Assembly: GCA_019750135.1 (NCBI GenBank) | Contig: JAIEOV010000017.1 | Coordinates: 1 to 64,000, forward strand | Direction: 5' to 3' | Origin: Reyranella sp. | GTDB taxonomy: Bacteria > Pseudomonadota > Alphaproteobacteria > Reyranellales > Reyranellaceae | DNA: 64,000 nucleotides | In this document: positions 1,893-25,978 of the stretch, in pieces | How the letters are laid out: each line of letters opens with the position of its first letter | How positions within the stretch are numbered: the stretch's first letter is position 1 | The notes under the pieces: generated by a model | What the model was told of the DNA's origin: nothing | Database searches by the model: none | The model's input: only the letters and a program-made list of their open reading frames with translations | Translations under genes and position numbers: made by a program

Positions 1893-3083
1893 CTAGTTGC
1901 CGCTGGGGAAATTGCCCCCGAGGGTACGTGGTATGGCTACGGTTGCCGTCGCCCCGGACAGGATCTGGAAGAACTTCGCGGCATCGGCCAACGGGGCCTG
2001 CGACACGAACAGGATATCCCCAGGCCGGACCGGAAAGGCGTTCATGGCGAAGAACGATTGCGGATCCCTGAGATTCAGCTGGTAGACGATCGGCACCGTT
2101 TCCCGGTCCTCCGCCAGGAGCTGGACGCCATAGCGGCGTGCCAGATCGACCGGTTCGCGGCGGAACAGGTAGACGCCCTTGGCGTCGGAACGCGAGGGAT
2201 CGAGCCCAACGCTCTGGCCCAGCGCATCGGTCAGGTTGAGCGGCAATTTGCGGAAAATCTGCTCCCCAGGCTGCAGCACAGCGCCGAGCGCGACGAACTT
2301 CTGCGGCTTGCGCGCCAGGAGCAATGCATCGCCTGCCGCAACCGGCACATTGAAGGTCTCGGGCCGATCGACCAGATCCTGCATCTGGATCGACATGGTC
2401 GACTGCCCGCGTGTCAGCCTCAGGGATGTTTCGTAAGGCGGATATTTCGTGCCGCCAGCCATGGCGATCATGTCGAGCACGCGCTGGTCGGTCCTTTCCA
2501 CCGGATAGGGTCCGGGCTTGTTGACCTCGCCTTGAACGGATGCGGCACTGCTGACGTTCTGGGCGACCATCACGGTCGCCTGAGGGTCGACCGCCTTGCC
2601 GGCAAGACGAGCGACGATCTCATTCTCGATGTCGGACAAGCTCCGGCCGCGGGCCATGAAACGTCCCGCGTAGGGCAAGGCGATCGTTCCGTCGACATCG
2701 ACACGGACGGTGACGTCCGATCCCTTTCGCTCCTTGCCAGCGAACAACCCTGTTTCGCTGGCTTCCCAGATCGTCACGCGCAAGACGTCGCCGACGCCGG
2801 CGCGACCGAAGGCGCCGGGCCGCTGAAAGGCGGCGGGAACGGTCGGCAGCACAGGCTGATAGTACTGTTCCGCGTCTCGGGCGATCCGCGAATCCACGGT
2901 CACGAGGGCAAACCGCATCACCGATGCGGGATCGCCCTTCCGATTCTCAGACGCATTAGCGAGCACGCTGTTGGCGTTCGGTCCATCGCTGGGCAAGAGG
3001 TCGCAGCTGGCGAGGCCAGCGCAAAGCGCTGCGGCGGCTATCCAGCGGCCCACGCTCCCGCCAAAGCGACCAGTTGCATTCAT
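1893..3083 (-). CDS. Wza-type polysaccharide export lipoprotein (first copy)
   Basis: The 396-residue product has a lipoprotein signal ending in LCAGLASC (lipidated Cys near residue 27). A polysaccharide-export domain (GVGDVLRVTIWEASETGLF) follows, then SLBB-like segments (VQGEVNKPGPYPV and VRPGDILFVSQAP). Family members form the outer-membrane channel through which capsule or exopolysaccharide leaves the cell. The true start is the ATG at 3083, preceded by GGGAGAG; the ORF-track version adds about 137 residues of upstream sequence. The gene stands alone, divergent from the PKS operon, so the two probably share the intergenic control region. A second, shorter Wza-type protein is encoded at 29303-29932, so this copy may belong to a different export route. 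Confidence 0.9.
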   Translation of the reverse strand: MNATGRFGGSVGRWIAAAALCAGLASCDLLPSDGPNANSVLANASENRKGDPASVMRFALVTVDSRIARDAEQYYQPVLPTVPAAFQRPGAFGRAGVGDVLRVTIWEASETGLFAGKERKGSDVTVRVDVDGTIALPYAGRFMARGRSLSDIENEIVARLAGKAVDPQATVMVAQNVSSAASVQGEVNKPGPYPVERTDQRVLDMIAMAGGTKYPPYETSLRLTRGQSTMSIQMQDLVDRPETFNVPVAAGDALLLARKPQKFVALGAVLQPGEQIFRKLPLNLTDALGQSVGLDPSRSDAKGVYLFRREPVDLARRYGVQLLAEDRETVPIVYQLNLRDPQSFFAMNAFPVRPGDILFVSQAPLADAAKFFQILSGATATVAIPRTLGGNFPSGN

Positions 3084-3468
3084 GACTGCTTGATCTCTCC
3101 CGCTGCCCCCCGGCTGGCGCGCGCCGACGATGTTCCCGATAGTAGGATCTACCTTAACAATACGGCATATCCCACTGATTTTCCAGTCAAGATCGTCTGC
3201 GCCAACTTTCATCTTTGCCCCACCGAACGCTCGCCCAAGCACAGGATTTCTGCAGTCCTTTTGAAATTTATTCTCGAAACTGCCGAAATGTCTTTGCACC
3301 TTAATACCACAACGCCATAAAGTCTGTGTGTAAGCACCCTGGCCAGGATGGGTTGTACAGCCGGTGGTGCAGAGCGCGTGAAGCGTCTTGGGGGACGCTT
3401 GTTCGCGAAGAGTTTCGGTGCGACCGGGAGATCGGCGCGTCGCCTGAGTTTGGGAAGAGACGCGGGGT
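3084..3468. other. Divergent control region between the Wza gene and the PKS operon
   Basis: About 385 bases separate the divergent starts of the export lipoprotein and the PKS. The middle part is richer in A and T than the neighbouring genes, as expected for promoters. I could not identify a convincing -35/-10 pair or operator. ORF-track entries here are extensions of neighbours or shadows. Confidence 0.5.
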
Positions 3469-6400
3469 ATGCAGGTAAAAAGCGAAATAGCCATTGTCGG
3501 CTATGCTTGTCGCGCGCCCGGAGCGCGCAACAGCGATGAGTTGTGGCAGGTTCTGCGCAACAACCATTGCGCTGTGTCGTGGATCAATCCCGAGCGGTTT
3601 CCCACGGCCCCCTTCTATCATCCCGCCGCCGACCAACCCGGCCGCAGCTACACTTTCGCAGCCGGCATAATCGACGACGTCTGGGGCTTCGATGCCGCCG
3701 CCTTCGGCATGAGTCCGCGCGAGGCCGAGCAGGTCGATCCCCAGCATCGCCATCTCCTCGAAGTCTCGCACGATGCGCTCGCCCACGCTGGCATCCGTCC
3801 ATCGAGCCTGGCGGGGGGCGAGACCGGCGTCTATGTCGGTGCATCGTCCGTCGACTACGCGGCGCGCTTCTTCGCCGATCCGTCGATGGCCGATGTGCAC
3901 ATGATGACGGGCAACTCGCTCAGCATCATGGCCAACCGCATCTCCTATGCCATGGACCTCCGCGGCCCCAGCATCGCCATCGACACGGCATGCTCGTCGT
4001 CGATGGTGGCGCTCCATCTCGCAGCGGAAGCGATCCGCCAGGGGACAATCGACACGGCGATCGTCGGCGGCGTCAATCTGCTGCTCTCTCCATTCTCCTA
4101 TGTCGGCTTCTCGCGCGCCACCATGCTGTCGCCGACCGGTCTGTGCCGGCCGTTCGATGCCGCGGCGGACGGCTACGTCCGCGCCGAGGGCACCATCGTG
4201 GTGGTGCTGCGCTCGATGGCGGCGGCGACCAAGGCGCGCAACCAAATCCATGGCGTGATCGTCGGATCGGGCATGAACCAGGACGGCCGAACCACCGGCC
4301 TGTCGCTGCCGTCCGCCGAATCGCAGCGCCGGCTGGTCGAGCGCGTCTACGACGATTTCGCCGTCGACCCGGCAGATCTGCTGTTCGTCGAGGCGCACGG
4401 CACGGGCACGCCCGTCGGCGACCCGATCGAGGCCGATGCCCTGGGCAAGGGGTTGGCGCAGCGCCGTGCCCAGCCCCTGCCGATCGGCTCGATCAAATCG
4501 AACATCGGCCATCTCGAGCCGGTGTCGGGCCTTGCCGGCCTCCTGAAATCCGTCATGGCGCTGAAGCACGGCATGGTGCCGGCGACGCTGCATCAGCAAT
4601 CGCCCAGCCCCAACATCCCGTTCGACGAGCTCAACCTCCGCGTCGTCGACCGGAACTGGCGGCCGGCGGAGCGGCGAGGCGCCGGGCTTGCCGGCATCAA
4701 CTCGTTCGGCTTCGGCGGCACCAACGCGCATGCCATCCTGCGCAGCAACGTCGCCACCGCCCACGTCGTCTATCTGCGCACCGACACGCTTGCCCCGCCC
4801 CTGCTGCTGACGGCGCACAGCCCCGAGGCGCTGCCGGCGCTGGCGAAGGCGTACGACCAGCACTGGCCCGATGCGCCACGGGCGGTGCCGGAGTTCATCG
4901 CAGCGTGTGCGCACCAGCGCGATCTCCTGTCCCACCGCGTGCTGATCCGCGGCGGAACGACCGACGAAATCCGCCTGCACACCCAGCGCTTCGCTGCCGG
5001 CGAAAAGGATGCCGCGGTGATGACCGGCCAGGCGCTCGGCAACGCCCTGCCGGTGGCGTTCCTATTCTCCGGCAACGGCGCGCAATGGGCCGGCATGGGC
5101 CGCGATGCGTGGAAGGGCAACGCGCACTTCCGTGAGGCCCTGCAGGAGATCGACAGCCAATTCGCCAAGGTGCAGGACTGGTCGATCGTCGACCTGCTGT
5201 TCGACGAAAGCCTGGCCGAGAAGCTCCGCCATGCGTCCTACTCCCAGCCCTTGCTGCTGGCCTTGCAGGTCGCGTCGGTTCGCGCCCTCGAGGAGGCCGG
5301 CGTCATGCCGACGGCGACACTGGGCCACAGCGTCGGCGAGATTTCCGCCGCCTGGGCAGCGGGCGCGCTCAGCCTGGAGCAGGCCATCGATATCGTCATC
5401 GCACGCAGCCGGCATCAGGAGACTACGCACGGTGCGGGCGGCATGGCGGCGCTGATGCTGAGCGAGCGCGAGGCGCGGCGTTTCCTGAAAGCCGTCAATG
5501 CATCGGGCGTCGACGTGGCCGCGATCAACAGCTGGCGCAGCGTCACGATCTCCGGCCCCGTGCAGGAAATCGAGCGCGTGCTGGCGGCAGCCGACCGCGT
5601 TCGCGTCAGCGCACGTCGACTCGACATTGACTATCCCTTCCACAGCACGCTCGTCGAACCAGTTCGCGCGCCGCTGCTTCGCGAACTCGGCGGCCTGAAG
5701 CCTCTGGCGCTTCGCCGCAAGATGATCTCATCGGTGACGGGCGAGGCCGCCACTGCCGAGATGCTGGGCGCCGAGCACTGGTGGCACAATGTCCGCGACC
5801 CGGTGCGGTTCGAGGCGGCGTTCTCGCGGCTGCTGGAAGACGGTTTCAAAATCTTCGTCGAGGTCGGGCCGAAGCCGATCCTCACGAGCTACGTCCGCGA
5901 CATCCAGCGCGAGGCCGGCGTCCGCGGTGCGATCATCGAGACGATGAACGAGACCGACGGCCAGGCGGCAGGCGATCCGATCGAACGCGCCGCCGCCAAG
6001 GTCTTGCTCGCCGGAGGCAATGTCGACCTGCAGCGCTTCTTCGGGCCGCCGCCGGCGTCCGCGGTGGTTCTGCCCCTCTATCCATGGCAGCACACGCCGT
6101 TCATCGCGCGGCCGACAATCGAGGCGACGACCGTCATGTCGCCTGCCGAGCATCCGTTGCTGGGACGCCGGTATCGCCTCGACTGCTTCGAATGGTTCTC
6201 GATCGTCGATCCGGTCCTGTTCACCTGGCTCCAGGATCACAAGGTCGCCGGCATGCCGGTATTTCCGGCAACCGCCTATGCCGAAGTCATGCTCGCGGCG
6301 GCGCGCGCCGTCCATCCCGACGCACCTCTGGAACTGCGCGACTTCGACATCGTCCGGCCGCTGGTGTTCGACGGTCGCGCCTCTTTCGAGACCCTGCTGC

Positions 6401-9400
6401 GACTCTCGCCCGAGACAGGTCTTGCGCAATTCCTGTCGCGCGCGCGCGGCGGCGTTCCCGACTGGACCCTCCATGCGCGCGGCGTGGTCGGCCGGTCTCC
6501 TATCGCCGGTAGGCCGATACCGGTCCCGCAGGCCGCTCCGGGCACCGTCTCCGTCGTCAAGCCCAAGGTCTACGAAAGCGCACGGGCTCTCGGCTTCGAC
6601 TATGGTCCGACCTTTCAGCGGGCGCGCCATGTCGCCTTCCCGCACCCCAAGCGTGCCATCGCCAGCCTCGACCCACCGGCAGCCGACACGATCGACACGT
6701 ACGTCATCGACCTGACGGCCTTCGACTCGGCGTTCCACGCCCTGTTCGCCTCGGAGGAGGCCGGGGTCGCCGACATGCCGATGAAGCCGTACCTGCCGAT
6801 CCGCTTCGGTTGCGTACGAGCCTTCTCTCCCGGCAAGGCAGCTGCTGTCGCCGTCGCGCGTACGCTTCGCCAGTCGCCGTCATCGCTGCTCATCGACATC
6901 GAGCTTTACGACGCCGACGGCCAGCTCATTCTCACCGTCGAGAACGCCCGGCTTGTCGATGCGCCGGCCGATACGGCGCCGAACGCCCAGTCGCTCACCT
7001 ATCACATGACGACCTGGCGCCTCGACCGAGCCGGTGAACGGGCAGCCGTCGACTGCATTTCGAGCACGGCCACGACGTCGAGCGACGAAAAGGGCGCATT
7101 CGGCGAAGCCCTGCTGCTGTTGGAGGCCGGCTGCCTCTGCGCGACATGGAAGGCCTTTGCGGCAAAGGGTACCGAACAGGCTGCCTCTCGACCGGCAAGC
7201 AACGGCGAACCGGCCCCTTCAGATTGGGCGACGTTCTTGCGCTCGGCGCTGCTCTGGCATCTCGAGTATCGGGGGCTCGCTGTCGATTCCGACGGCGAAA
7301 GAACCCTTGCCAGCAGTTGTGAGCTGCCGGACGTCGCCTCGATCGTGAGTTCGCTCGCCTTGCGTCATCCGACCATGGCGGCCGAGGCTGCCAGCCTGGC
7401 CCGTATCGAAGAGCTGCTCGAGCGCATCGTCGTCGGCGATCCGGAAGTGCCGGCCGATCTCAACACCGCGCATTGGCGCCAGCTTGCCACGAGCTCCAGC
7501 CAATCGGTCCTGTTGCGCGACGCCGTTCTCGTCGACGTCGAAAGCGCGGTGGCCCGTGGCGGCAGCGACCGGCTGGTGCGCCTGTTCATGATCGGCGCGC
7601 AGCACGTCGATGCCGCGATCGATCTCGTCGAGAAGTTCGCCAACCTCGAGATCACCGTGGCCGATCTGGACACGGACCGGCTGGAGCAGGCTCGCCTGCT
7701 GCTGGCCGACGACTATCCGCGCGTGCGCTGCGTTCCCTGGACCGATGTCGAGGCGATTGTCACGGGCAGCATGGACATTGCCTGCGCAATCGATGGCCCC
7801 AGCGAGATTGCGGCGATGACGGGCGGCCTTGTCCATGTCGCCCGCATCCTGCGGCCGGGTGCTGCCATCCTGGCTGCCGAGCCGGCGCCCAACGTCTTCT
7901 GGGACATCATCCGGGGCACCCGCTCCAAATGGTGGTCGAGATCGGCCAACGCCGAATTTCCGGTGGGCGCGCTGCTGACCAGCCAGGAGTGGATGGACGA
8001 ATTCCAGGTTGCCGGCTTCGAAGACATCTCCGCGACGCCGATCCTCGGCGACGCCCGGATCGGCGTGGTCGTCCGCGGTCTCGCCGTGCAGCACGCCCTT
8101 CCGGGCAGGCTGCCGGTGGACGAGGCAACGATCTTCTCCTGGGAAGGTGACGAGGCCAGGTCCCATACCATCTCGGGGCGCCTGCACGGCCACCTCGGCG
8201 AACGCAAGACAGCGACGAATGGCGATGGCAGCCCCGCGGCTGTGACGGACATCGTGTGGCTGATCGATGTGCCCTCATCCCCGTTCGAAGCATCCAATGC
8301 CCTGGCCGACCATCTCGCCCGGCTGGCCGAGCGCTGCCGCAGGCTTGCAGCGGACCCTGCCCGTCTCTGGGTCGTCATGGATTTCGGCGAGGACCAGCAC
8401 GACGTGTCGGCGCTCGACCTGCCGGTGTGGTGCGCGGTCACCGCGGCAGTCCGCGTGGCGCAGAACGAATACGCCGGGCTGCAGATCCGCTGCCTGGGGT
8501 TGGCGGGACCGCTGGTGGACGCTTCGGTCGAAAGCCTGGCGGAAGAGTTGCTGGCACCCGACGGCGAGCGCGAAATCTTCGTGGGCGACGGGCACCGCCA
8601 CGTCTTCCGAGTTCAGCGCGGCATCCACGATGGCGTCTCGGGCCATCCGGCAACGGCGGAGACGTCCATCGTCCTGGCAAGCCGCCAGGGCCACGCCCGC
8701 AACGGCCTGGGATGGGCGGCCGAGCCGCGCCGAGAGCCCGGGCCGGACGAGATCGAGATTGCCGTCCGGGCCACCGGCCTGAACTTCCGCGACGTCATGT
8801 GGAATCTCCGGCTGCTGCCCGAGGAGGCGCTGGAGGACGGCTATTCGGGACCCGGACTCGGCATGGAGTGCGCCGGAACCGTTGTCCGTTGCGGCGCGGA
8901 GGTCGACGCATTCCAGGTCGGCGACCGCGTAGTGGCCTTCGCGCCGCACGCCTTCGCGAGTCACGTCGTCGCCCCGGTATTTGCCGTCAGTCCGCTGCCA
9001 CCCGGCATGTCCTTCGAAGCGGCGTGCTCGATACCGGTGGCTTTCCTCACCGCCTACTATTCGCTCGTTCACTTGGCGCAGATCCGCGCCGGCGAAACGG
9101 TGCTGATCCACGGCGGCGCGGGCGCTGTCGGCCTCGCCGCTATCCAGATCGCCCGGCAGCGTGGCGCACGCATCATCGCCACCGCCGGCAGCGACGAGAA
9201 ACGCGCCTTCCTGCGCAATCTCGGCGTCGACTTCGTCTGCAATTCGCGCGGCCTGTCCTTCGCCGATGAGATCGCCGAGTACACCGGCGGCAAGGGCGTC
9301 GACATCGTGCTGAACTCGCTGGCCGGTCAGGCGATGGCACGGTCGATGGATTGCCTGCGCCCGTTCGGGCGCTTCATCGAGCTGGGCAAGCGCGACTTCT

Positions 9401-10920
9401 ACGCCAATACCCATCTCGGCCTCCGGCCGTTGCGGCGCAACCTTTCCTACTTCGGCGTCGACGTCGACCAGTTGATTGGCGAACACCGGGAGCTGGCGCG
9501 TCAGCTGTTCGGCGAAGTCATCCAGCTGTTTGCGGCGGGCGATCTCGCTCCCCTGCCGCACCGCGTGTTCGACCCCGGCCACATCGCCGACGCTTTCCGC
9601 CTCATGCAGCGCGCCGGCCACATCGGCAAGATCGTGGTGAAAGCGGCCGACCGCACCACCGCCCTGAGCACGGCCGGCGGCCAGTTCCCCGTTGCTGCCG
9701 ATGCCTTGCATGTCGTCATCGGCGGCACCAGCGGTTTCGGCCTGTCGACAGCGGCCTGGTTGGCCGAGCGGGGCGCCACGCGGCTGGTGCTGGCCAGCCG
9801 TGGTGCCCAGATATCGGAAGCCGATCTTCCCAAGGTCGAAGGACTGCGCCGCCGAGGCGTCGAGGTTTTGCTCGAGCGCGTCGATGTCGCCGACGGCCCG
9901 GCGCTGTCGCGCTTCCTGCAGCGCATGGCGGCGCACGGGCCGATCAAGGGCATCGTCCACGCCGCGATGGTGCTCGACGATCGCCTGATCGAAGGCATCG
10001 ATGCCGCGGCAATAGAGACGGTGATGCGGCCCAAGGTTCTTGGCGCGCTCAATCTCGAGCAGGCCGTTGCCGGCCTCGAACTCGACTACCTGCTGTTTTA
10101 CTCGTCCGCCACGACGCTGTTCGGCAATCCCGGCCAGTTCAACTACGTCGCCGCCAACGGCTTCGTCGAAGGCCTGGCGCGCCGGCTGCGCGCGCGCGGC
10201 ATGCCTGCGCTCGCGGTTGCCTGGGGCGGCATCGAGGATGCGGGCTACCTGTCGCGAAACATCGCCGCCGACGCCAATCTCAAGAAGCGGTTCTCGTCGA
10301 GCCTGATCTCGGCGCAGACCGCCCTCGACGGCCTCGACTGGATCCACGACGCCCTCGGCCGTCAGACGACAGCCGGCTGCGCCATCGCCCGCATCGACTG
10401 GGCAATGGCCAAGCGCGAGCTGGCGGCGGTGCGCACGCCGACCTTTGGCGCCATCGGAGCGTCCTCGGGAACGCGGCATGCCGTCGACGGCGCCGCCATC
10501 GTCGAGCGCCTGCGCGCCCTGCCCCCCGACGAGGCGATCGACGCCCTGGTCGACATCGTCGTCGAGGAGATCGCGCGCGTACTGCGCCTGCCGCCCAAGG
10601 AGATCGACCGCCACCGTCCGCTGGCCGAGATCGGCATGGATTCGCTGATGATGCTCGAACTGCGCAACACGGTCGAAGAATCGCTGGGGATCGACCTGCC
10701 GATGATGTCCATCTCGAGCGGCATCACGCCGATGGACGTCGCGCGTCGCGTCCTGCCGCTCATCACCGGCGAGAAGCAGGTGACGCCGCTGGCCGGCACC
10801 CTGATGGCGCTGACGGCCAGCCACGCGGCCGCCGAGGCCGAGGCCACGAATATCGACGAGCAGTACGCCGCGGTCGCCGCCGTGCTCGAGAAAGTCCGTG
10901 AACTGGAGGGCCCCCGATGA
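3469..10920 (+). CDS. Type I polyketide/fatty-acid synthase, KS-AT-DH-(MT-like)-ER-KR-ACP, RkpA-like
   Basis: A 2483-residue single-module synthase. The KS has the full triad (DTACSSS Cys175, His310 in EAHGTGTP, His348 in NIGHLEP). The AT has GHSVGE (Ser621) and YPFHS (His725). The DH has HKVAGMPVFP (His924) and a DSAFH acid near residue 1086. Residues about 1365-1535 look like a methyltransferase remnant without a glycine-rich SAM loop. The ER carries HGGAGAVG (about 1881), the KR GGTSGFG (about 2085) with Tyr2226 in NYVAANG, and the ACP GMDSLM (Ser2392). All reductive domains look intact, so a fully reduced acyl chain is expected. There is no thioesterase. The stop overlaps the next ATG (ATGA), a PLP oxoamine synthase likely to release the chain. 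Domain order and neighbours resemble rhizobial RkpA, a capsule gene. Chain length and AT substrate are unknown. Confidence 0.93.
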   Translation: MQVKSEIAIVGYACRAPGARNSDELWQVLRNNHCAVSWINPERFPTAPFYHPAADQPGRSYTFAAGIIDDVWGFDAAAFGMSPREAEQVDPQHRHLLEVSHDALAHAGIRPSSLAGGETGVYVGASSVDYAARFFADPSMADVHMMTGNSLSIMANRISYAMDLRGPSIAIDTACSSSMVALHLAAEAIRQGTIDTAIVGGVNLLLSPFSYVGFSRATMLSPTGLCRPFDAAADGYVRAEGTIVVVLRSMAAATKARNQIHGVIVGSGMNQDGRTTGLSLPSAESQRRLVERVYDDFAVDPADLLFVEAHGTGTPVGDPIEADALGKGLAQRRAQPLPIGSIKSNIGHLEPVSGLAGLLKSVMALKHGMVPATLHQQSPSPNIPFDELNLRVVDRNWRPAERRGAGLAGINSFGFGGTNAHAILRSNVATAHVVYLRTDTLAPPLLLTAHSPEALPALAKAYDQHWPDAPRAVPEFIAACAHQRDLLSHRVLIRGGTTDEIRLHTQRFAAGEKDAAVMTGQALGNALPVAFLFSGNGAQWAGMGRDAWKGNAHFREALQEIDSQFAKVQDWSIVDLLFDESLAEKLRHASYSQPLLLALQVASVRALEEAGVMPTATLGHSVGEISAAWAAGALSLEQAIDIVIARSRHQETTHGAGGMAALMLSEREARRFLKAVNASGVDVAAINSWRSVTISGPVQEIERVLAAADRVRVSARRLDIDYPFHSTLVEPVRAPLLRELGGLKPLALRRKMISSVTGEAATAEMLGAEHWWHNVRDPVRFEAAFSRLLEDGFKIFVEVGPKPILTSYVRDIQREAGVRGAIIETMNETDGQAAGDPIERAAAKVLLAGGNVDLQRFFGPPPASAVVLPLYPWQHTPFIARPTIEATTVMSPAEHPLLGRRYRLDCFEWFSIVDPVLFTWLQDHKVAGMPVFPATAYAEVMLAAARAVHPDAPLELRDFDIVRPLVFDGRASFETLLRLSPETGLAQFLSRARGGVPDWTLHARGVVGRSPIAGRPIPVPQAAPGTVSVVKPKVYESARALGFDYGPTFQRARHVAFPHPKRAIASLDPPAADTIDTYVIDLTAFDSAFHALFASEEAGVADMPMKPYLPIRFGCVRAFSPGKAAAVAVARTLRQSPSSLLIDIELYDADGQLILTVENARLVDAPADTAPNAQSLTYHMTTWRLDRAGERAAVDCISSTATTSSDEKGAFGEALLLLEAGCLCATWKAFAAKGTEQAASRPASNGEPAPSDWATFLRSALLWHLEYRGLAVDSDGERTLASSCELPDVASIVSSLALRHPTMAAEAASLARIEELLERIVVGDPEVPADLNTAHWRQLATSSSQSVLLRDAVLVDVESAVARGGSDRLVRLFMIGAQHVDAAIDLVEKFANLEITVADLDTDRLEQARLLLADDYPRVRCVPWTDVEAIVTGSMDIACAIDGPSEIAAMTGGLVHVARILRPGAAILAAEPAPNVFWDIIRGTRSKWWSRSANAEFPVGALLTSQEWMDEFQVAGFEDISATPILGDARIGVVVRGLAVQHALPGRLPVDEATIFSWEGDEARSHTISGRLHGHLGERKTATNGDGSPAAVTDIVWLIDVPSSPFEASNALADHLARLAERCRRLAADPARLWVVMDFGEDQHDVSALDLPVWCAVTAAVRVAQNEYAGLQIRCLGLAGPLVDASVESLAEELLAPDGEREIFVGDGHRHVFRVQRGIHDGVSGHPATAETSIVLASRQGHARNGLGWAAEPRREPGPDEIEIAVRATGLNFRDVMWNLRLLPEEALEDGYSGPGLGMECAGTVVRCGAEVDAFQVGDRVVAFAPHAFASHVVAPVFAVSPLPPGMSFEAACSIPVAFLTAYYSLVHLAQIRAGETVLIHGGAGAVGLAAIQIARQRGARIIATAGSDEKRAFLRNLGVDFVCNSRGLSFADEIAEYTGGKGVDIVLNSLAGQAMARSMDCLRPFGRFIELGKRDFYANTHLGLRPLRRNLSYFGVDVDQLIGEHRELARQLFGEVIQLFAAGDLAPLPHRVFDPGHIADAFRLMQRAGHIGKIVVKAADRTTALSTAGGQFPVAADALHVVIGGTSGFGLSTAAWLAERGATRLVLASRGAQISEADLPKVEGLRRRGVEVLLERVDVADGPALSRFLQRMAAHGPIKGIVHAAMVLDDRLIEGIDAAAIETVMRPKVLGALNLEQAVAGLELDYLLFYSSATTLFGNPGQFNYVAANGFVEGLARRLRARGMPALAVAWGGIEDAGYLSRNIAADANLKKRFSSSLISAQTALDGLDWIHDALGRQTTAGCAIARIDWAMAKRELAAVRTPTFGAIGASSGTRHAVDGAAIVERLRALPPDEAIDALVDIVVEEIARVLRLPPKEIDRHRPLAEIGMDSLMMLELRNTVEESLGIDLPMMSISSGITPMDVARRVLPLITGEKQVTPLAGTLMALTASHAAAEAEATNIDEQYAAVAAVLEKVRELEGPR

Positions 10921-12284
10921 GCGCCTACAATCGCACCGGCGCACAGGAGACGGTCGACAAGGTGCGCCATGTCCTGCGTAAGCCCCAGGATGTCGTGGCT
11001 CACCCGAGCCGCACGGGAGGTCAACCGTCCTTTCGCTCGCACAGCTCGGAAACGCGGTTCGACAGGCTGCCCGAGTACGAGATCCTGAAGATCAAGCGCG
11101 CCGTCGGCGACATCAGCGGCATCGCCAGCCCGTTTTACCGCCTGCACGATGGACGCGCCGGCGCTACGACCTCGATCGCCGGCCGCACGATCGTGAATTT
11201 CTCATCATACGACTATCTCGGCCTCAACGGCCACGACGGCGTCGCCGCCGCCGCCAAGACGGCAATCCAGTACTTCGGCACGTCGGTGTCGGGCAGCCGG
11301 TTGTCCGGCGGCGAGCGCCAGATCCATCGCGATCTCGATGCCGCGCTGGCACGACTGCACGGCACCGAGGACGCAGTGGCCTTCGTCAGCGGCCATGCCA
11401 CAAATGTCTCCGTCATCGGCGCGCTGCTCGGGGCGGAGGATCTGATCATCGGCGATGCCGTGGTGCACAACAGCATCATGGAAGGCGCCCGGCTCTCGGG
11501 TGCCAAGCGGATCCTTTGCCCGCACGGCGACTTGGAGGCACTGGAGCGAGCGCTCCGCCTCAACCGCGCCCGCCACCGGCGCGCGCTCGTGGTCGTCGAG
11601 GGGCTCTACGGCATGGACGGCGACATGCCCAACCTAGCCGCCCTGATCAAGCTCAAGCGGCGTTACGACGCGTGGCTGATGGTCGACGAGGCGCATTCGG
11701 TCGGCGTGCTCGGAGCGACCGGCCGCGGCATCGCCGAGGAGCAGGGCATCGATCCGGCCGATGTCGACATCTGGATGGGCACGCTCAGCAAGTCGCTTGC
11801 CGCCATGGGCGGCTACATTGCCGGCTGCCAGCCGCTGATCGACATACTGAGGGATACGACGCCCGGCTTCGTGTTCAGCGTCGGCCTGTCGCCGCCGGTG
11901 GCGGCGGCGGCACATGCCGCCATCGACGTCATGCAGCAGGAGACCTGGCGGCTCGCGAAGTTGCGCGAAAACGGCCGCACTTTCCTGCGCGGCGCGAAGG
12001 CCCGCGGCCTCGATACCGGCCTCAGCATCGGGGCGGCCGTGGTGCCGATCATGATCGGCAATTCTCCGCATGCCGTGATCCTGTCGGAGCGCCTGTTGGA
12101 ACGCGGCTTCAACATCGTGCCTGCCTTCTTCCCGGGGGTGGCCGAAAACCAGGCGCGGTTGCGCTTCTTCCTGACCAGCCAGCATACGTCCGAACAGATC
12201 GACAACGTGCTCGATGCCGTGGTCGAGGAGCTGTCCAAGGTCCGCAACGGCCCGCCCCTCGTCTCCCTGGTCACCAAGCGCTAA
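10917..12284 (+). CDS. PLP-dependent alpha-oxoamine synthase (AONS/SPT/KBL family), RkpG-like
   Basis: The 455-residue protein belongs to fold-type I PLP enzymes that condense an acyl thioester with an amino acid and lose CO2 (8-amino-7-oxononanoate synthase, serine palmitoyltransferase). Visible motifs are SGSRLSGGERQIHRDLD, VDEAHSVGVLGATGRG and GTLSKSLAAMGG, whose Lys292 should bind PLP. An N-terminal extension of about 60 residues precedes the usual fold. The ATG overlaps the PKS stop as ATGA, so the two are translationally coupled. Here it probably takes the acyl chain from the PKS ACP and releases an alpha-aminoketone; the amino acid used cannot be told from the sequence. Context (next to a PKS and an SDR, not to biotin genes) argues against BioF. 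The same order is known for rkpG in rhizobial capsule clusters. Confidence 0.88.
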   Translation: MSAYNRTGAQETVDKVRHVLRKPQDVVAHPSRTGGQPSFRSHSSETRFDRLPEYEILKIKRAVGDISGIASPFYRLHDGRAGATTSIAGRTIVNFSSYDYLGLNGHDGVAAAAKTAIQYFGTSVSGSRLSGGERQIHRDLDAALARLHGTEDAVAFVSGHATNVSVIGALLGAEDLIIGDAVVHNSIMEGARLSGAKRILCPHGDLEALERALRLNRARHRRALVVVEGLYGMDGDMPNLAALIKLKRRYDAWLMVDEAHSVGVLGATGRGIAEEQGIDPADVDIWMGTLSKSLAAMGGYIAGCQPLIDILRDTTPGFVFSVGLSPPVAAAAHAAIDVMQQETWRLAKLRENGRTFLRGAKARGLDTGLSIGAAVVPIMIGNSPHAVILSERLLERGFNIVPAFFPGVAENQARLRFFLTSQHTSEQIDNVLDAVVEELSKVRNGPPLVSLVTKR

Positions 12285-12309: not shown

Positions 12310-13119
12310 GTGACGGACCCGCACGTGGATTTCAAGGCTATCGTCATCACAGGTGCTTCCAGCGGCATCGGCGCGACGCTGGCGCGACGGCTGAGCGGGC
12401 CCGGCCGCGTGCTTGGCTTGATCGGCCGTAGTCAGCAGCGGCTCGAGGCGGTCGCGGCGGAGTGCACGGCGGCCGGTGCAAGCTGCCGCAGCGCCAGCAT
12501 CGACATCCGCGACACAGCCCGCTTGCGGGGCTTCCTCGACGATTTCGGCCGAGATCACCCCATCGACCTGCTCGTCGCCAATGCCGGCATCCTGGACGGC
12601 CGTCATGGCGATCAGGTCACGGAAACCGGCGAGACGGCGCGGCGCGTCCTGGAGATCAACCTGCTTGCCGCCGTGGATACGGTCCACGCAGTGCTCCCGG
12701 CCATGCGCCGACGCGGCAGCGGCGGCATCATCATCGTCTCATCGCTCGCAGCCTTCGTCCCGCTTGCCGATGCGCCGGCCTATTCGGCTTCCAAGGCCGC
12801 CCTGGTGTCCTACGCGGTGGCGCTTCGCGATGCTGTCGAAGGCGAAGGCGTAAAAGTCATGGCCGCCTGCCCCGGCTTCGTCGCCACGCCCATGGCCGAC
12901 ATCCATCTCGGTCCGCGGCCCGGCGAGATTTCTGCGGACGAGGCGGTAACCCACATCCTCGAGGGGTTTCGGCGCAACAAGGCGCTGGTCGGGTTTCCCT
13001 TGGTTCCCTTCTGGCTGTCGCGCCTCAGCCTTCTCGTTCCAGAGTTCGTCCGCCGACGAGGCGCGCGCGGCACCCGCTTTCACGTCGCCTCGCCGCCACC
13101 CGGCATGGCCCCCGAGTGA
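12310..13119 (+). CDS. Short-chain dehydrogenase/reductase, RkpH-like ketoreductase
   Basis: A classical SDR of about 269 residues with TGASSGIG for NAD(P)H binding, NAG (VANAGIL), and the catalytic Ser plus YSASK. The C-terminus has an arginine-rich tail (RRRGARGTRF). In this operon it most plausibly reduces the aminoketone made by the preceding enzyme to an amino alcohol, as 3-ketosphinganine reductase does; that is inference from context and from the rkpH parallel. No ATG lies at the expected start. In-frame GTG codons exist at 12286, 12310 and 12325; I chose 12310, but 12325 (after ACGGACCC) is equally possible. The gene follows 25 bases after the oxoamine synthase stop, and its own stop overlaps the next start (GTGA). 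Confidence 0.85.
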   Translation: MTDPHVDFKAIVITGASSGIGATLARRLSGPGRVLGLIGRSQQRLEAVAAECTAAGASCRSASIDIRDTARLRGFLDDFGRDHPIDLLVANAGILDGRHGDQVTETGETARRVLEINLLAAVDTVHAVLPAMRRRGSGGIIIVSSLAAFVPLADAPAYSASKAALVSYAVALRDAVEGEGVKVMAACPGFVATPMADIHLGPRPGEISADEAVTHILEGFRRNKALVGFPLVPFWLSRLSLLVPEFVRRRGARGTRFHVASPPPGMAPE

Positions 13120-13853
13120 GTCCGCAGGATCCTCCCGCGCCAGCCACACGCACCAACAGCGGCTGGCTGTCGGCCGCCGAGCAACGCGCCCTCGACTGGT
13201 TGGCGCCCCGCGTCCCGCGATGGTTCACGCCCGACGGCTTGACTGCCGTGGGCCTTGCCGCGGCCATCGTGGCAATGGCGGGCTATGCGCTGGCGCCGCG
13301 TTACCCCTTGGCCTTGTGGTTCGTGAATGTCGCCCTGGTCGTGAACTGGTTCGGCGACTCATTGGACGGAAAGGTGGCCCGGCTGAGGGGCATCGAGCGG
13401 CCGCGCTATGGGTTCTTTCTCGATCAGTCGATCGACATCCTGTCCCAGCTTCTGTTCGCCGTCGGTCTTGCCGCATCGGGTTACATCAGGCCTGAGATCG
13501 TCATGCTGGGACTGGCGACCTATCTGATGATGACCGCGCAGTCCCTCTTGCGGGTACAGGCAACCGGCGTCTTCCACCTGGCCACCGGCGGAATGGGCCT
13601 GACCGAGGTCCGCTGCCTGTTCCTGGTCGGCAACGCCCTCTTCTACTTCGTGCCGCCCTGGCCCTTTACGATCGGCACGACGACCCTGGCCTATCCCGAC
13701 ATCTTCGGCGTCGCCTGGATCGCGACCAATCTCGGCCTCTATGTATCGACGATGATCGCGGAGCTCAGGCGACTCGCTCGAGAGGAGCAACCTTCGCCTA
13801 GAGCCTCGCGCCCAACCGAAGCATCACCACGTTCTGATCGTAGTCGGCGTTGA
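13116..13853 (+). CDS. CDP-alcohol phosphatidyltransferase family protein
   Basis: About 245 residues with several membrane segments and the complete family signature D-x2-D-G-x2-A-R...G-x3-D-x3-D, seen as DSLDGKVARLRG followed by GFFLDQSID. These enzymes transfer a phospho-alcohol or phosphatidyl group from a CDP-linked donor. I start it at the GTG at 13116, which overlaps the SDR stop as GTGA; the ORF-track version begins far upstream in another gene's territory. Being the last coupled gene of the PKS operon, it may attach a phospho-headgroup to the amino alcohol or use that amino alcohol as acceptor. This gene is not part of the rkpAGH set that I know. The last 56 bases overlap the convergent barrel gene. 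Confidence 0.85.
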   Translation: MSPQDPPAPATRTNSGWLSAAEQRALDWLAPRVPRWFTPDGLTAVGLAAAIVAMAGYALAPRYPLALWFVNVALVVNWFGDSLDGKVARLRGIERPRYGFFLDQSIDILSQLLFAVGLAASGYIRPEIVMLGLATYLMMTAQSLLRVQATGVFHLATGGMGLTEVRCLFLVGNALFYFVPPWPFTIGTTTLAYPDIFGVAWIATNLGLYVSTMIAELRRLAREEQPSPRASRPTEASPRSDRSRR

Positions 13854-15126
13854 ACTGATTCGAGGTCCGGTGGATGAATTGATAGGTCGGACCGACGTAG
13901 AAATTCGACGTCGGCAGGTACATGAGGCCGGCGCGGAACGTCCAGTACTGATCGTACTGGTTGCTGGCGCCAGAGCTGAGCGCCGTATAGTCCGCGATCG
14001 CATAGTCGGCATGCCCGTCGAGACGCACGTTCGGGCGCAGATGATAGTTCACGTCGAGCCCAGCAGCGGTGTTGATGTAGGCTGCCGTTCCGGTAAGGGC
14101 GGAATCGTCAACCGTCCGGCGGACGAACGGCTTCACCCAGAGTTCGGGAAGCGGATTCCAATAGCCGATGAGGCCGAAGGTCGGCGTGCTGATGGTCGAG
14201 AACTGGCCGGCGACGTAAGTCTGCTGCATGTAGCCGGCGAAGATCTCGACCGCCGTGATCCCACCCAGGTCGACGATCAAGCCGCCGACGACGTCGAAGC
14301 CGTTGGACGACCGGTCGAGGCCGGATGAATCGAGCTGAAAATATCTGCGCTGATTGAGGCTGCCGCGCACCCAGGCCTCGAAGCCGGGCGAGAACTCGTA
14401 TCCGAAACGCAGCGCTTCGCGCAATTCGTTGCGGTTACGATCGCTGTTGGGAATGACGCCCTGCGCCGGGCCAAGACCATTGTTGAAGAACGCATAATTG
14501 TCGTAGCGGCCGTCGAGGCGAACGTTCAGCCGATTGAACGCCTGGAAGTAGCCGACGTTGGCCGACGTCTGATTGTACACCGTGATCGGCAGTCCTATGC
14601 CGGTGGGCGTGTTGGGCGTGCCGAATTCATCGTGACGCCGGTTCCAGGATGCCCCGCCATAGACGTTCCAGTTGCGCTGGATATCCAGGCGGCCGTCGGC
14701 GCCCACCGACACATCCTGAAAGTTGTTGAGCGGACCATTGTTGCTGTAGAAGCCAAAACCGCCCTTGGCGTAGGCGTTCAGCATGTGATTCGCCCAATCC
14801 GACTTCAGTTCGAGAGTCGGATTGACCAGCTGAATGAAGGAGGCCTGTTTGCCCGTCGCGTTCGACGTCGCGTAGATGTTGTCGTTGAAGACTTCGTCTG
14901 CCTCCAGGTTTGCGAACAGCTTGAACCCGCCGAGACGCACGCCTTTGGCATCATAGTTCTCCGACTCGCGCACCGCCGGGCTGCGTTCGTCCGGCCGCTC
15001 ATAACGCTGTTGAGGCTGGCCGACGGCTCCGGGAACAATCTGCGCCGTCGCTTCCGTGGCCGAAGCTCCGACTGCTATCGCCAAGGCGGCAACACGACAG
15101 ACGAGAGACAGGCGGCCGGTCTTCAT
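13798..15126 (-). CDS. Outer-membrane beta-barrel protein (BBP2/DUF2320-like), first copy
   Basis: A 442-residue protein with a signal peptide (LSLVCRVAALAIAVGASATEATAQ). A long stretch of alternating hydrophobic and polar residues, rich in aromatics, follows, as in large beta-barrels (VFNDNIYATSNATG, GYMQQTYVAGQF, YVGPTYQFIHRT). The pattern matches barrels often encoded in alphaproteobacterial exopolysaccharide clusters, where a role in export or surface attachment is assumed. I use the ATG at 15126 because GGGGAT lies just before it; the ORF-track start is six codons earlier. A paralogue with the same layout (GGFGFY, YELDV-like strands, RLDIR) is encoded at 29943-31298. The C-terminal residue is Leu, not the common Phe. 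It overlaps the preceding convergent gene by 56 bases. Confidence 0.85.
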   Translation of the reverse strand: MKTGRLSLVCRVAALAIAVGASATEATAQIVPGAVGQPQQRYERPDERSPAVRESENYDAKGVRLGGFKLFANLEADEVFNDNIYATSNATGKQASFIQLVNPTLELKSDWANHMLNAYAKGGFGFYSNNGPLNNFQDVSVGADGRLDIQRNWNVYGGASWNRRHDEFGTPNTPTGIGLPITVYNQTSANVGYFQAFNRLNVRLDGRYDNYAFFNNGLGPAQGVIPNSDRNRNELREALRFGYEFSPGFEAWVRGSLNQRRYFQLDSSGLDRSSNGFDVVGGLIVDLGGITAVEIFAGYMQQTYVAGQFSTISTPTFGLIGYWNPLPELWVKPFVRRTVDDSALTGTAAYINTAAGLDVNYHLRPNVRLDGHADYAIADYTALSSGASNQYDQYWTFRAGLMYLPTSNFYVGPTYQFIHRTSNQFNADYDQNVVMLRLGARL

Positions 15127-15295
15127 CAGGATCCCCGAGTTCATTCAAGGCACTGACATAGTAGACGCGAGCAACCACCGTCACTACGGATATGCAGCGT
15201 GTCACCGGATGGCCCCAGGGGTGGGCCATTTCGAAACGCAGGCGCCGCGCGGATTTCCGATTGCTTCGTACGAAATCAGACAGACGCCCCGCCCT

Positions 15296-22611: not shown

Positions 22612-23352
22612 CTAAATATTGAGCCGGTTGAACACGACCCGCGGCAGATTGCGCACGACGAACATGATCAGCCCCCAGCGCGCCGGAACGTAGAACACCG
22701 GCCGCTTGGCATCGATTCCGCGCACCATGGCCTGCGCCACTTCCTCGACCGAGGCCGGCCGGCCGCCGCGCGCCTTGAGGGGCGCGGCCATCGGCGTGTC
22801 GGTTGGCCCGGGCTTGATCAGCACGACGGCGACCGGGCTGCCGGCGAAGCGATGCTGCAGGCCCTCGGCGTAACACTCGATGAAGCTCTTCGCCGCCCCA
22901 TAGACGTAGTTGGTCTTGCGGCCGCGATCGCCAGCGACCGAACCGATGATCGCCAGCGTGCCGCGCCCTGCCCTTGCCAATTGCGCGGCGAAAGCCTCGG
23001 CGAACAGGGCCGGCGATACTGCGTTCACCTCCACGGTGCTGCGGCAGAGAGCGAGGTCGGCTTCGGCCAACCGCTGCTCGGGAAGGCTGCCATGGGCGAT
23101 CAGCACGATGTCGATCGGCGCGTCGGCTGCAGCCCGTTCGGCCAGCCGGCCGATCGCCGTCGCATCGAGGAAGTCCAAACTCGCCACCTGGACCGTCGAC
23201 GTCGGGCTGCGCACCTTGAGGTCTTGCGCCACACGTTCGGCCTTGGCCGTATCGCGCGCCACCAGCAGCAGATCACAGGCCGTGCGCTGTACCCAGATCC
23301 GACAGCAATGCTCGGCAATCGCCGACGTTGCTCCGATCACGACTATCCTCAC
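22612..23352 (-). CDS. dprE2: DprE2-like SDR, polyprenylphosphoryl-2-keto-ribose reductase
   Basis: The 246-residue SDR has VVIGATSAIAEHCCR at the NADH site, IIGSVAGDRGRK, and the catalytic YGAAK. The C-terminal VFYVPARWGLIMFVVRNLPR is a feature of DprE2 and related membrane-associated SDRs. DprE2 reduces the keto intermediate formed by DprE1 to polyprenylphosphoryl-D-arabinofuranose. It follows the DprE1 gene by 19 bases, which supports the assignment. The start is a GTG at 23352 with AAGGAGG upstream. It could in principle be another SDR, but the pairing with DprE1, GtrA and UbiA-type neighbours makes that unlikely. Confidence 0.87.
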   Translation of the reverse strand: MRIVVIGATSAIAEHCCRIWVQRTACDLLLVARDTAKAERVAQDLKVRSPTSTVQVASLDFLDATAIGRLAERAAADAPIDIVLIAHGSLPEQRLAEADLALCRSTVEVNAVSPALFAEAFAAQLARAGRGTLAIIGSVAGDRGRKTNYVYGAAKSFIECYAEGLQHRFAGSPVAVVLIKPGPTDTPMAAPLKARGGRPASVEEVAQAMVRGIDAKRPVFYVPARWGLIMFVVRNLPRVVFNRLNI

Positions 23353-23371
23353 TCCAGCCCTCCTTCGGCCT

Positions 23372-24664
23372 TCAGCTTCCCATCAACCGCCGCGACATCG
23401 CCGAGCTGATGCCGGGATCGCGATAGCGCACGAATTCACCGAGGCGCGGATACCCGGCCTCGAACATCGCCCGCGGCATGCGTGCATCCTTTGCGGGATA
23501 GAGCCGGCCGCCCGCCGCAACGACCAAGGCGTCGAGGCGCTCGAACAAGGCCTCGATGCCCGCATGATTGTGGAAATCGAGCGCCAGTGTCGCGCCCGGC
23601 CGGGGAAAGCTCAGCAGGCCCGGCGGCCAACGCTCCCCGAACGTCTTCAGCACTGCCAGGACCGATCCGGCGCCGGATCGGCCGATCGCCTCCAGCAGGC
23701 TTGCAATCGCCGCCAGCGCGTTCTCGTGCGGCACGACACACTGATACTGGTAGAAGCCGGCCGGTCCATAGGCACGGTTCCAGCCGGCGATGGCGTCGAG
23801 CGGAAACAGAAACGGCTGGTAGTGGACGATGCGCGGCCCAAGATGCCGTTGGTTGGACCACCAGTAGAGCTGGTTGATCGGCTTCAGTGTCAGGCGATTT
23901 ATTAAGGAGATCGGGGGCGACACCGGCATGGCGAGCGATCGGGCGCGCCAAGCGCCCTGCTGAACGGCGGCAGGGCGGGCGCGCAGAAAGAGGCCGCGGC
24001 CAGCGTCGCCTGACGTGCAGTCGATCCAGGAAACCGTGTGTTCCCAGGCAGGATGTGATTCGTCGGACAGCCGGAAAAAGGCGTCGAGCCCCATGTAGGC
24101 GATGGTCTCGGCTTCGAGCCAAGGTCCCGGGACGCGCCGCAGCTGCAGCTCGGCCTCGACGATGAGCCCGGTCAGGCCAAGGCCCCCGACGGTCGCCGCG
24201 AACCAGTCGGGCCGTTCGGCCGGGCCGCAGACGATCTCCTCGCCATCGCAGCGCTGCAGGCGGATCGACATGACGTGGTCTCCGAAGGTCCCACTGCCAT
24301 GATGATTCTTGCCGTGGACGTCGTTGGCGATGGCGCCGCCCACCGTGACCTGCCGAGTGCCCGGCAGTACCGGCAGGCCCCAGCCGCGCGGCAGAAACAG
24401 GTCCTGGATATCGCGCAGCACCACGCCTGCCTCGCAGACCAGGCGGCCCGTCGCTTCATCGAAGTCGATGAAACGATCGAGGCCGGCCGTCCGCCACAGG
24501 GTGCCGCCGGGATTGAGGCAGACGTCACCGTAGCTGCGACCGAGCCCATAGGCGATGCCAGGCCGGCTGCGAACCAGCGCGGCTGTGACGGCAGTCCGAT
24601 CCGAGAGCTCCACAACGTCGTGCGGCAGCGCCGACAACCGCCCCCAGGACGACACCGGCCTCAT
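23372..24664 (-). CDS. dprE1: DprE1-like FAD-dependent oxidase of the arabinofuranose-donor pathway
   Basis: A 430-residue FAD-linked oxidase of the vanillyl-alcohol-oxidase fold. It shows GLGRSYGDVCLNPGG, VHGKNHHGSGTFG for FAD binding, FYQYQCVVP in the substrate domain, and GGRLYPAKDAR, whose Lys matches the mycobacterial active-site Lys418. DprE1 oxidises the 2-hydroxyl of polyprenylphosphoryl ribose. The start ATG at 24664 overlaps the GtrA stop (ATGA); the long ORF-track version is an artefact of the open upstream frame. The residue aligned with mycobacterial Cys387, the benzothiazinone target, is Ala here (LALDF versus CVDF). The gene order GtrA-DprE1-DprE2 equals Rv3789-Rv3790-Rv3791. 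Confidence 0.9.
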   Translation of the reverse strand: MRPVSSWGRLSALPHDVVELSDRTAVTAALVRSRPGIAYGLGRSYGDVCLNPGGTLWRTAGLDRFIDFDEATGRLVCEAGVVLRDIQDLFLPRGWGLPVLPGTRQVTVGGAIANDVHGKNHHGSGTFGDHVMSIRLQRCDGEEIVCGPAERPDWFAATVGGLGLTGLIVEAELQLRRVPGPWLEAETIAYMGLDAFFRLSDESHPAWEHTVSWIDCTSGDAGRGLFLRARPAAVQQGAWRARSLAMPVSPPISLINRLTLKPINQLYWWSNQRHLGPRIVHYQPFLFPLDAIAGWNRAYGPAGFYQYQCVVPHENALAAIASLLEAIGRSGAGSVLAVLKTFGERWPPGLLSFPRPGATLALDFHNHAGIEALFERLDALVVAAGGRLYPAKDARMPRAMFEAGYPRLGEFVRYRDPGISSAMSRRLMGS

Positions 24665-25062
24665 GGGGTGGCAGCGCGGAACACGAAGCGCTTGTCGAGG
24701 TGATACTTTGCCCAATAGCCGATGACGAGGCCGATCAGCCCGCCGAGGTAGCGCAGCCTCTTGTCCTGGAAGGCGCTGTAGAAGGCGAATTCGAAACCCC
24801 AGAAGACCAGGGTGGTGACGACACCCATGCCGGAGTAGAGGATGAAGGTCTGCAAGTCGTGCGCCGCACTCTCGGCCTTGAAGCTGAAGATGAAGATCTT
24901 GTCGAGCACGTACTTGAGAGCCAAGCCGACCGCGGTGCCGACCAGCACCGAGAGCTCGATCTGCCACGGACCAGTCCACAGATAGACGGCGAGCGCCTGC
25001 GCCGCGAGGTTCGCGGCCATCGCGATCAGGGCAATGATCGCGTAGACGATCGCAAGCCGCAT
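24661..25062 (-). CDS. GtrA-family membrane protein linked to the arabinofuranose donor (Rv3789-like)
   Basis: A 133-residue four-helix protein of the GtrA family (LKYVLDKIFIFSFK, GLIGLVIGYWAKYHLDKRFVFR). In mycobacteria the equivalent protein Rv3789 is encoded beside DprE1 and has been proposed to flip or organise the arabinose donor. The same neighbourhood here argues for a role with polyprenylphosphoryl arabinofuranose. The ATG at 25062 is preceded by AAAGG and leaves 67 bases to the divergent UbiA gene. The ORF-track start at 25248 would overlap that gene and is rejected. Confidence 0.83.
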   Translation of the reverse strand: MRLAIVYAIIALIAMAANLAAQALAVYLWTGPWQIELSVLVGTAVGLALKYVLDKIFIFSFKAESAAHDLQTFILYSGMGVVTTLVFWGFEFAFYSAFQDKRLRYLGGLIGLVIGYWAKYHLDKRFVFRAATP

Positions 25063-25129
25063 CGATTGACCTTTTCCATGCTCCCGGTCCCCAGTATAAG
25101 CATGTTGGGGGTATGGTCTCGTTATCAAT

Positions 25130-25978
25130 ATGTCGCCGCTGATCGGCCTGCTCCGCCTTGCGCGTCCGAAGCAGTGGATAAAGAACACCTTCGTGCTGGC
25201 GCCGCTGGTGTTTGCCCGGGAGTTCGCGCATCCCGACTCCATCATCAATGCGCTGATTGCGTTCGGGCTGTTCTGCGTGGCCTCGTCCGCGACCTACATC
25301 CTGAACGACCTCCGCGACATCGACCGCGACCGCAGCCATCCGACCAAGCGCTACTCCCGACCGCTAGCGGCCGGCACCGTCTCGCCACGCGCGGCGATCG
25401 GTCTGCTGATCGCCTGCTATTGCGTGCTTGTCGCCGGATGGCTCTGGTCGGTGGATACCATGCTGGCGATCTTCGCCTACCTGGCGTTGAACGTGGCCTA
25501 TACCTACTGGCTGAAGCACCAGCCGGTGCTCGACCTCTTCTCGATCGCCACCGGCTTCGTGCTGCGCACCTATGCCGGCGCGCTTGCGCTGGCCGTGCCG
25601 CTGTCGAGCTGGATGGCGATCACCACGCTCTGCCTGGCGCTCTATCTGGCGGCCATCAAACGGCGGCAGGAACTGGCGAGCAACGGCGCCGAAAGCCGCG
25701 AGGTGCTACGCACCTACTCCGCGGCGCTGATCGACCGCTATGCCGAGATGTCGGCAACCGGCGCCCTGATCTTCTACAGCCTGTTCGTGATGTCGGCCAA
25801 CGCCAGGCTTGCCGCCACGATCCCCTTGGTCATCTTCGGCCTCTACCGCTACTGGTATGTCGTCGAGCGTCTGGGCGGCGGCGAATCGCCGACCGATGCG
25901 GTGCTGTCGGACTGGCCGCTCGCCCTCGCCATCGTCATCTGGATCGGCGTCTGCGTGGCGGTCCTGCTGCCCGGCTAG
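25130..25978 (+). CDS. UbiA-type polyprenyl-phosphate phosphoribosyltransferase (DPPR synthase-like)
   Basis: A 282-residue protein with about nine membrane helices and the UbiA prenyltransferase signature (RPKQWIKNTFVLAPLVF, then NDLRDIDRDRSHPTKRYSRP, whose Asp residues bind Mg). The RPKQWIKN start and YSRPLAAG are the pattern seen in decaprenyl-phosphate phosphoribosyltransferase. That enzyme joins PRPP to the polyprenyl phosphate as the first step of arabinofuranose-donor synthesis. Neighbouring DprE1 and DprE2 homologues strongly support this over quinone biosynthesis. The gene is divergent from GtrA-dprE1-dprE2, and its stop overlaps the stop of the convergent phosphatase gene. No obvious ribosome-binding site precedes the ATG. 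Confidence 0.85.
   Translation: MSPLIGLLRLARPKQWIKNTFVLAPLVFAREFAHPDSIINALIAFGLFCVASSATYILNDLRDIDRDRSHPTKRYSRPLAAGTVSPRAAIGLLIACYCVLVAGWLWSVDTMLAIFAYLALNVAYTYWLKHQPVLDLFSIATGFVLRTYAGALALAVPLSSWMAITTLCLALYLAAIKRRQELASNGAESREVLRTYSAALIDRYAEMSATGALIFYSLFVMSANARLAATIPLVIFGLYRYWYVVERLGGGESPTDAVLSDWPLALAIVIWIGVCVAVLLPG

Follow-up and report, generated by a model that had tools for sequence, protein, structure and literature searches.

Why should an operon that encodes a polyketide synthase (PKS), an alpha-oxoamine synthase (AOS) and an SDR end in a gene for a CDP-alcohol phosphatidyltransferase (CDP-AP), and what would such an enzyme do there? The question is raised by a locus in a window of 64,000 nucleotides (the whole stretch of DNA analysed here) from a Reyranella-like genome of 8.46 Mb in 160 contigs.

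The operon runs on the plus strand in the order PKS-AOS-SDR-CDP-AP, with CDP-AP as the fourth and last gene. Its first gene (3469-10920) encodes a mono-modular type I PKS with the Pfam domains KS-AT-DH-ER-KR-ACP, a putative maker of an acyl chain, and PKSs of 62-92% identity occupy the same place in other Reyranella genomes. The AOS (10917-12284, +), an SgaB/RkpG-like protein with an Aminotran_1_2 domain, shows 49% identity to its counterpart in a Pseudomonas cluster and 51% to the AOS at the rkpG position of S. meliloti; the SDR (12310-13119, +; start GTG 12310 or 12325; adh_short), a putative keto-sphinganine reductase, shares 39% identity with the SDR of the Pseudomonas cluster and 30% with that at the rkpH position. 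PKS and AOS overlap by 4 bp (ATGA, 10917-10920). So do SDR and CDP-AP, where the GTG start of the latter (13116-13118) interlocks with the TGA stop of the former (13117-13119), and this junction reads GTGATG in the two nearest relatives. The GTGA overlap that the initial annotation had pointed out is therefore real, at 13116-13119; its word “fused” was wrong, and a gene fusion is rejected, as these are coupled, separate frames overlapping by 4 bp. Two neighbours provide context only: a polysaccharide export protein gene (Poly_export and SLBB by Pfam; 1893-3494, -), divergent and upstream of the operon, and a gene for a putative beta-barrel porin 2 (PF10082, 277 bits; 13798-15144, -), which is convergent to CDP-AP, overlaps its last 56 bp, within the unconserved tail, and also adjoins the operon at loci L021 and L022.

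The CDP-AP gene (13116-13853, +) is a frame of 245 codons with a GTG start, encoding a predicted membrane protein that matches the superfamily profile PF01066 at 30.2 bits against a cut-off of 22. The family motif, earlier described as intact, is indeed complete (D81-x2-D84-G85-x2-A88-R89-x9-G99-x3-D103-x3-D107), with all four catalytic Asp residues present and D81, D84, D103 and D107 invariant across 13 aligned CDP-AP sequences; the last 20 or so residues of the protein are unconserved. In our alignments the nine-residue spacer within the motif is one residue longer than in CEPT1 and PIP synthase (PIPS), and it is common to the relatives inspected.

What kind of CDP-AP is this? When a 13-sequence profile was compared with the PDB, the top two matches were human CEPT1 (E 2.7e-9) and CHPT1 of Xenopus (E 3.0e-9), and PIPS came only at E 0.014. 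The AlphaFold model (pLDDT 82, pTM 0.74) has the six-helix membrane fold when set beside CEPT1, archaeal DIPPS and PgsA1, and of these CEPT1 is the best match (E 5.7e-4, TM 0.66), followed by DIPPS and PgsA1. CEPT1 and CHPT1 transfer a phospho-alcohol from a CDP-alcohol to a lipid hydroxyl, the chemistry that a phospho-sphingoid requires. As judged by profile and predicted fold, the window CDP-AP is nearest to these enzymes, with which it has in common the metal/CDP motif and a T-E pair in the fifth helix, yet it falls outside their group, because their Glu/His pair is replaced by Phe and Gln and their choline box is unconserved; it is also about half their size and differs in its nine-residue motif spacer. 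The catalytic Glu/His dyad of CHPT1 lies in a G-E-x-x-D-H stretch (PMC10182977), where the window protein aligns with G99-F100 and D103-Q104 and so lacks the dyad. Of the residues forming the choline box of xlCHPT1 (Glu43, Trp50 and Phe186), the first two align with Ser19 and Leu26 and Phe186 could not be placed; with the box absent, specificity for CDP-choline is unsupported.

The donor might instead be CDP-diacylglycerol, with a sphingoid base or a polyol phosphate as acceptor in the manner of PIPS/AIPS-type enzymes, giving a phosphatidyl-sphingoid or phosphatidyl-polyol phosphate. All bacteria have CDP-diacylglycerol, whereas neither the operon nor the PF01467 proteins of the window genome offer an obvious dedicated synthase for a CDP-alcohol; the fold matches that follow CEPT1 are to DIPPS and PgsA1, and the highest NCBIfam score is to archaetidylinositol phosphate synthase. 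We nevertheless consider this alternative unlikely: the profile finds CEPT1/CHPT1 at E 3e-9 and PIPS, far behind, at E 0.014, and no invariant Arg was found in the last helix of CDP-AP across the 13-sequence alignment, where we take the position equivalent to Arg195 of PIPS to lie. In PIPS this Arg is one of two that serve the acceptor phosphate (PMC4634129). The equivalog models for archaetidylinositol phosphate synthase and PIP synthase, moreover, reach 51 and 30 bits against cut-offs of 180 and 170, and on these scores and the missing last-helix Arg an identity with either enzyme is rejected.

Members of PF01066 commonly make phosphatidylglycerol phosphate or phosphatidylserine, so the gene could also be an ordinary extra phospholipid enzyme of the PgsA/PssA type that hitch-hikes in the operon. 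The window genome, however, encodes both PgsA (162 bits against a cut-off of 109) and PssA (110 bits against 107) elsewhere, which makes a housekeeping duty unlikely for the window CDP-AP; at E 0.001 this protein gives no match to the pgsA and pssA equivalog models, and the gene is patchy, being present in 15 of 75 Reyranellaceae genomes, three of these as remnants. A housekeeping role is therefore rejected, and the hitch-hiking enzyme is very improbable. A third CDP-AP of the window genome, with no role assigned, adjoins PssA.

Eleven further Reyranella genomes (12 with the window) have homologues of 59-81% identity next to the same set of genes. This recurrence, together with purifying selection (dN/dS 0.26-0.28 against two relatives), argues that the frame is more than a product of chance, though dN/dS is lower in the neighbouring AOS (0.09-0.13) and SDR (0.13). 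Wherever the Reyranella contig is long enough, the four genes follow one another on one strand, so that the possibility raised earlier, that the arrangement might be absent elsewhere and the proposal thereby fall, does not apply; the exceptions are three genomes (L029-L031) in which an antisense gene, a methyltransferase by inspection, stands between SDR and CDP-AP. In five further genomes (L032, L033, L034, L173 and L184) the AOS has been kept and both SDR and CDP-AP have been lost or broken; four of these contigs have a full-length PKS match, and the fifth, L032, is short and includes just part of the AOS. The remaining AOS-bearing Reyranella contigs that were read have PKS-AOS and no CDP-AP match. 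Since about half of the PKS-AOS-bearing Reyranella genomes do without it, CDP-AP is not essential to the PKS-AOS core. In Reyranella with PKS-AOS and no CDP-AP, a gene for a right-handed beta-helix protein with DUF4114 was seen convergent to AOS (L174:10859-13414).

Beyond Reyranella, species genomes were scanned with a CDP-AP profile and the best 80 of at least 590 relatives were considered, a pattern-based survey in which associations are counts and not rates. Among these 80, PKS or PKS-AOS was found beside CDP-AP in two Bradyrhizobium-group MAGs, on the opposite strand and with AOS and SDR seen in one of them, and in Falsiroseomonas stagni, where some 50 bp separate the AOS match from that of CDP-AP. 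L128, a contig assigned to an Opitutaceae MAG, carries a PKS-AOS-CDP-AP set nearly identical to that of F. stagni (L107); it is probably mis-binned and was counted with Falsiroseomonas. In our trees a single clade unites all PKS/AOS-linked CDP-APs, whether from Reyranella, Bradyrhizobium or Falsiroseomonas (SH-aLRT 98 with 95 rows; 100/98 with 66 rows, and in all 200 bootstrap trees), and within it the Falsiroseomonas row is a long branch of unsure exact position. The residue after the third motif Asp is Gln or Asn in every member of this clade and in three near relatives; His stands there in 76 of 100 aligned relatives and never in the PKS-linked clade.

More distant homologues are found in other company. 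Some lie near SPT-like and GNAT-like genes, the latter candidate N-acyltransferases, in Actinobacteria, a Deltaproteobacterium and a Neomarinimicrobiota MAG. In Chloroflexota, Actinobacteria and further groups a gene of the lipid A acyltransferase family (PF03279) stands immediately before such a distant CDP-AP homologue, at L127:8972-9907 and at 32 more loci. The relatives carried by sphingomonad plasmids have no PKS/AOS context, and family membership alone therefore does not imply a sphingoid role. The PKS-linked clade appears to be dedicated to sphingoids; the family as a whole is not, because many homologues adjoin the PF03279 acyltransferase and some sit in unrelated places.

Much of the window is a polysaccharide island, with an export protein, a Wzz/tyrosine-kinase-like protein, glycosyltransferases, a Wzt-type ABC ATPase with a C-terminal domain, an FkbM methyltransferase, an asparagine synthase and an initiating sugar transferase. 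At 22612-26634 the island also includes genes for a DprE2-like SDR, for an oxidase resembling DprE1 (347 bits against a cut-off of 500) and for a decaprenyl-phosphate phosphoribosyltransferase of the UbiA family that scores at its cut-off; together they are likely to form a polyprenyl-phosphate-arabinose pathway, here within the polysaccharide locus of an alphaproteobacterium. Such surroundings would suit a CDP-AP that decorates a polysaccharide or polyprenyl carrier with a phospho-alcohol, independently of the PKS lipid and placed here by the polysaccharide locus; a diverged paralogue in genome G057 (L035) is likewise surrounded by polysaccharide genes, neither PKS nor AOS being matched there, and sister CDP-APs (L117 and L188) are found in polysaccharide regions. 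Several observations make this role distinctly unlikely, however: CDP-AP overlaps SDR and decays jointly with it, a single CDP-AP clade is tied to PKS/AOS in three families, the sister loci still pair CDP-AP with an rkpH-like SDR, and the CEPT1-like class of the enzyme suggests a lipid acceptor.

The lipid that such an enzyme would modify is suggested by comparison with a known pathway. The main text of a 2025 report on P. fluorescens MYb115 describes a PKS (SgaA), an AOS with serine palmitoyltransferase activity (SgaB) and a putative keto-sphinganine reductase (SgaC), and as products C24-C28 sphinganines together with compounds 154 Da heavier that were assigned as phosphoglycerol sphinganines; it names no head-group enzyme for them (PMC12134224). 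Like that system, the window operon has a mono-modular, reducing and presumably iterative PKS, an AOS and a KDSR-like SDR in one cluster; it differs in carrying a CDP-AP, which the main text does not mention for MYb115 (PMC12134224). The AOS substrate would be serine and its products 3-keto-sphinganines, given the 49% identity to the AOS of the Pseudomonas cluster and the analogy with PfSgaB. In that Pseudomonas cluster, which lies on a plasmid, the order is PKS, AOS, four genes and SDR, with a gene of the LTA-synthase family adjoining SDR. This order fits the spacing of the MYb115 locus tags, and we infer by analogy that MYb115 may have the same LTA-synthase-family gene.

LTA synthases transfer phosphoglycerol from phosphatidylglycerol. 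Genes of this likeness accompany PKS-AOS in Pseudomonas, Caballeronia, Paraburkholderia, Shinella, Methylobacterium and two alphaproteobacterial genomes of the class survey, the other alphaproteobacterial clusters of that survey showing neither this gene nor a CDP-AP within the stretch read. In S. meliloti an LTA-synthase/sulfatase-family gene directly follows the rkpH-type SDR and is itself followed by a KpsS-like gene; by gene order we read the two as rkpI and rkpJ, and the first (L044:14254-15782) is a candidate phosphoglycerol transferase. Its match is split over two frames in the record of that strain. The rkpA-G-H-I-J cluster of Sinorhizobium and the wcb-type capsule clusters of Burkholderiaceae resemble the window in placing PKS, AOS and SDR in polysaccharide loci, but carry LTA-synthase-like and KpsS-like genes, whereas the window genome has CDP-AP and lacks both: no KpsC/KpsS-type gene, none with PF05159 (KpsS-like) and no homologue of the cluster-type LTA-synthase-like protein at E 1e-30 was found in it. 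Within Reyranellaceae CDP-AP and the LTA-synthase-like gene are mutually exclusive. A sister genus has the LTA-synthase-like gene in 4/4 genomes, near PKS-AOS in all three loci read, and CDP-AP in 0/4; the cluster-type LTA-synthase-like gene was found in no Reyranella genome. The simplest reading of this exclusivity is that both enzymes equip one kind of lipid with a phosphate-linked head group, CDP-AP by a different route. The remark in the initial annotation that CDP-AP is an extra gene, foreign to the rkpAGH set, agrees with its absence from the rkp-, wcb- and sga-type clusters read, several of which have the LTA-synthase-like gene.

The donor is the weakest point of the argument. No CDP-alcohol synthase is encoded in the operon, and among the PF01467 proteins of the window genome (two CoaD-like, one NadD-like, one HldE-like fusion and one partial match) there is no clear TagD-like maker of CDP-glycerol. 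A cytidylyltransferase-PfkB kinase fusion lies at L136:1420-2943 of the same genome, its domain order the reverse of that in HldE. For the head-group alcohol, a glycerol-like polyol is our leading guess. In Caulobacter, CpgA (CC_1159), described with a domain acting on CDP-alcohols, is required for ceramide diphosphoglycerate, and CpgD makes CDP-glycerate (PMC11324152, PMC12275187). Likened by description only, the CpgA-D pathway offers a precedent for an alphaproteobacterial phospho-sphingolipid route, but it differs in its classic SPT/ceramide backbone, its ceramide kinase and the lack of a PKS (PMC12275187, PMC11324152). A literature search for a CDP-AP with PKS and sphingolipid found nothing, and the sponge swf cluster, with its reductase/sulphotransferase, is unrelated.

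We propose that the four-gene operon probably builds a sphingolipid-like lipid by polyketide synthesis and then attaches a phosphate-linked head group. The iterative PKS would build a reduced acyl chain for the AOS to condense with an amino acid, presumably serine as in the case of PfSgaB; the SDR would reduce the ketone to a sphinganine-like amino alcohol, and CDP-AP, in the membrane, would convert CDP-X and lipid-OH to lipid-O-phospho-X and CMP, with a sphinganine as the presumed acceptor, thereby doing the job probably done by an LTA-synthase-like phosphoglycerol transferase in the rkp/wcb/sga clusters. That CDP-AP serves PKS-made sphingoid lipids as an alternative transferase of the head group has, in our estimate, a probability of about 0.6. 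All of this chemistry we infer from gene content and order, the clade, the exclusivity with the LTA-synthase-like gene, the metal/CDP motif and the fold class.

In favour of the head-group transferase are the overlapping operon order and its conservation in Reyranella, the PKS/AOS-linked clade (100/98), the joint decay of SDR and CDP-AP, the CEPT1/CHPT1-like profile and fold, the presence of PgsA and PssA elsewhere, the SPT-like genes near distant homologues, the LTA-synthase-like gene that comparable clusters carry and that excludes CDP-AP in Reyranellaceae, and the sphinganines and probable phosphoglycerol sphinganines described for SgaA/SgaB-type PKS and AOS in the main text of the MYb115 report (PMC12134224). 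Against it stand the want of a CDP-alcohol synthase in the operon or any obvious one among the PF01467 proteins, the absence of the CHPT1 dyad and choline box, the PKS-AOS-bearing Reyranella genomes without CDP-AP, and a dN/dS higher than that of the neighbouring genes. We regard as evenly balanced the wider proposition that a dedicated CDP-alcohol phosphotransferase clade, with Gln or Asn in place of His after the third motif Asp, adds a phospho-alcohol to polyketide-made sphingoids, takes the place that the LTA-synthase-like enzyme has in rkp/wcb/sga clusters and gives rise to a new alphaproteobacterial class of phospho-sphingolipids. The idea of a phospho-sphingoid product, put forward at the outset as novel, fits the likeness to CDP-APs with lipid acceptors; its novelty is diminished, because PKS-derived sphingolipids with a probable phosphoglycerol head group are already described in the main text of the 2025 report (PMC12134224).

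For those PKS-made sphingolipids, whose head-group enzyme the main text leaves unnamed (PMC12134224), the window operon supplies a candidate, and the comparison yields a second in the LTA-synthase-family protein at the rkpI position. The same comparison suggests that rkp, wcb and sga clusters make phospho-sphingolipids, which may bear on how the capsules of rhizobia and Burkholderia are anchored.
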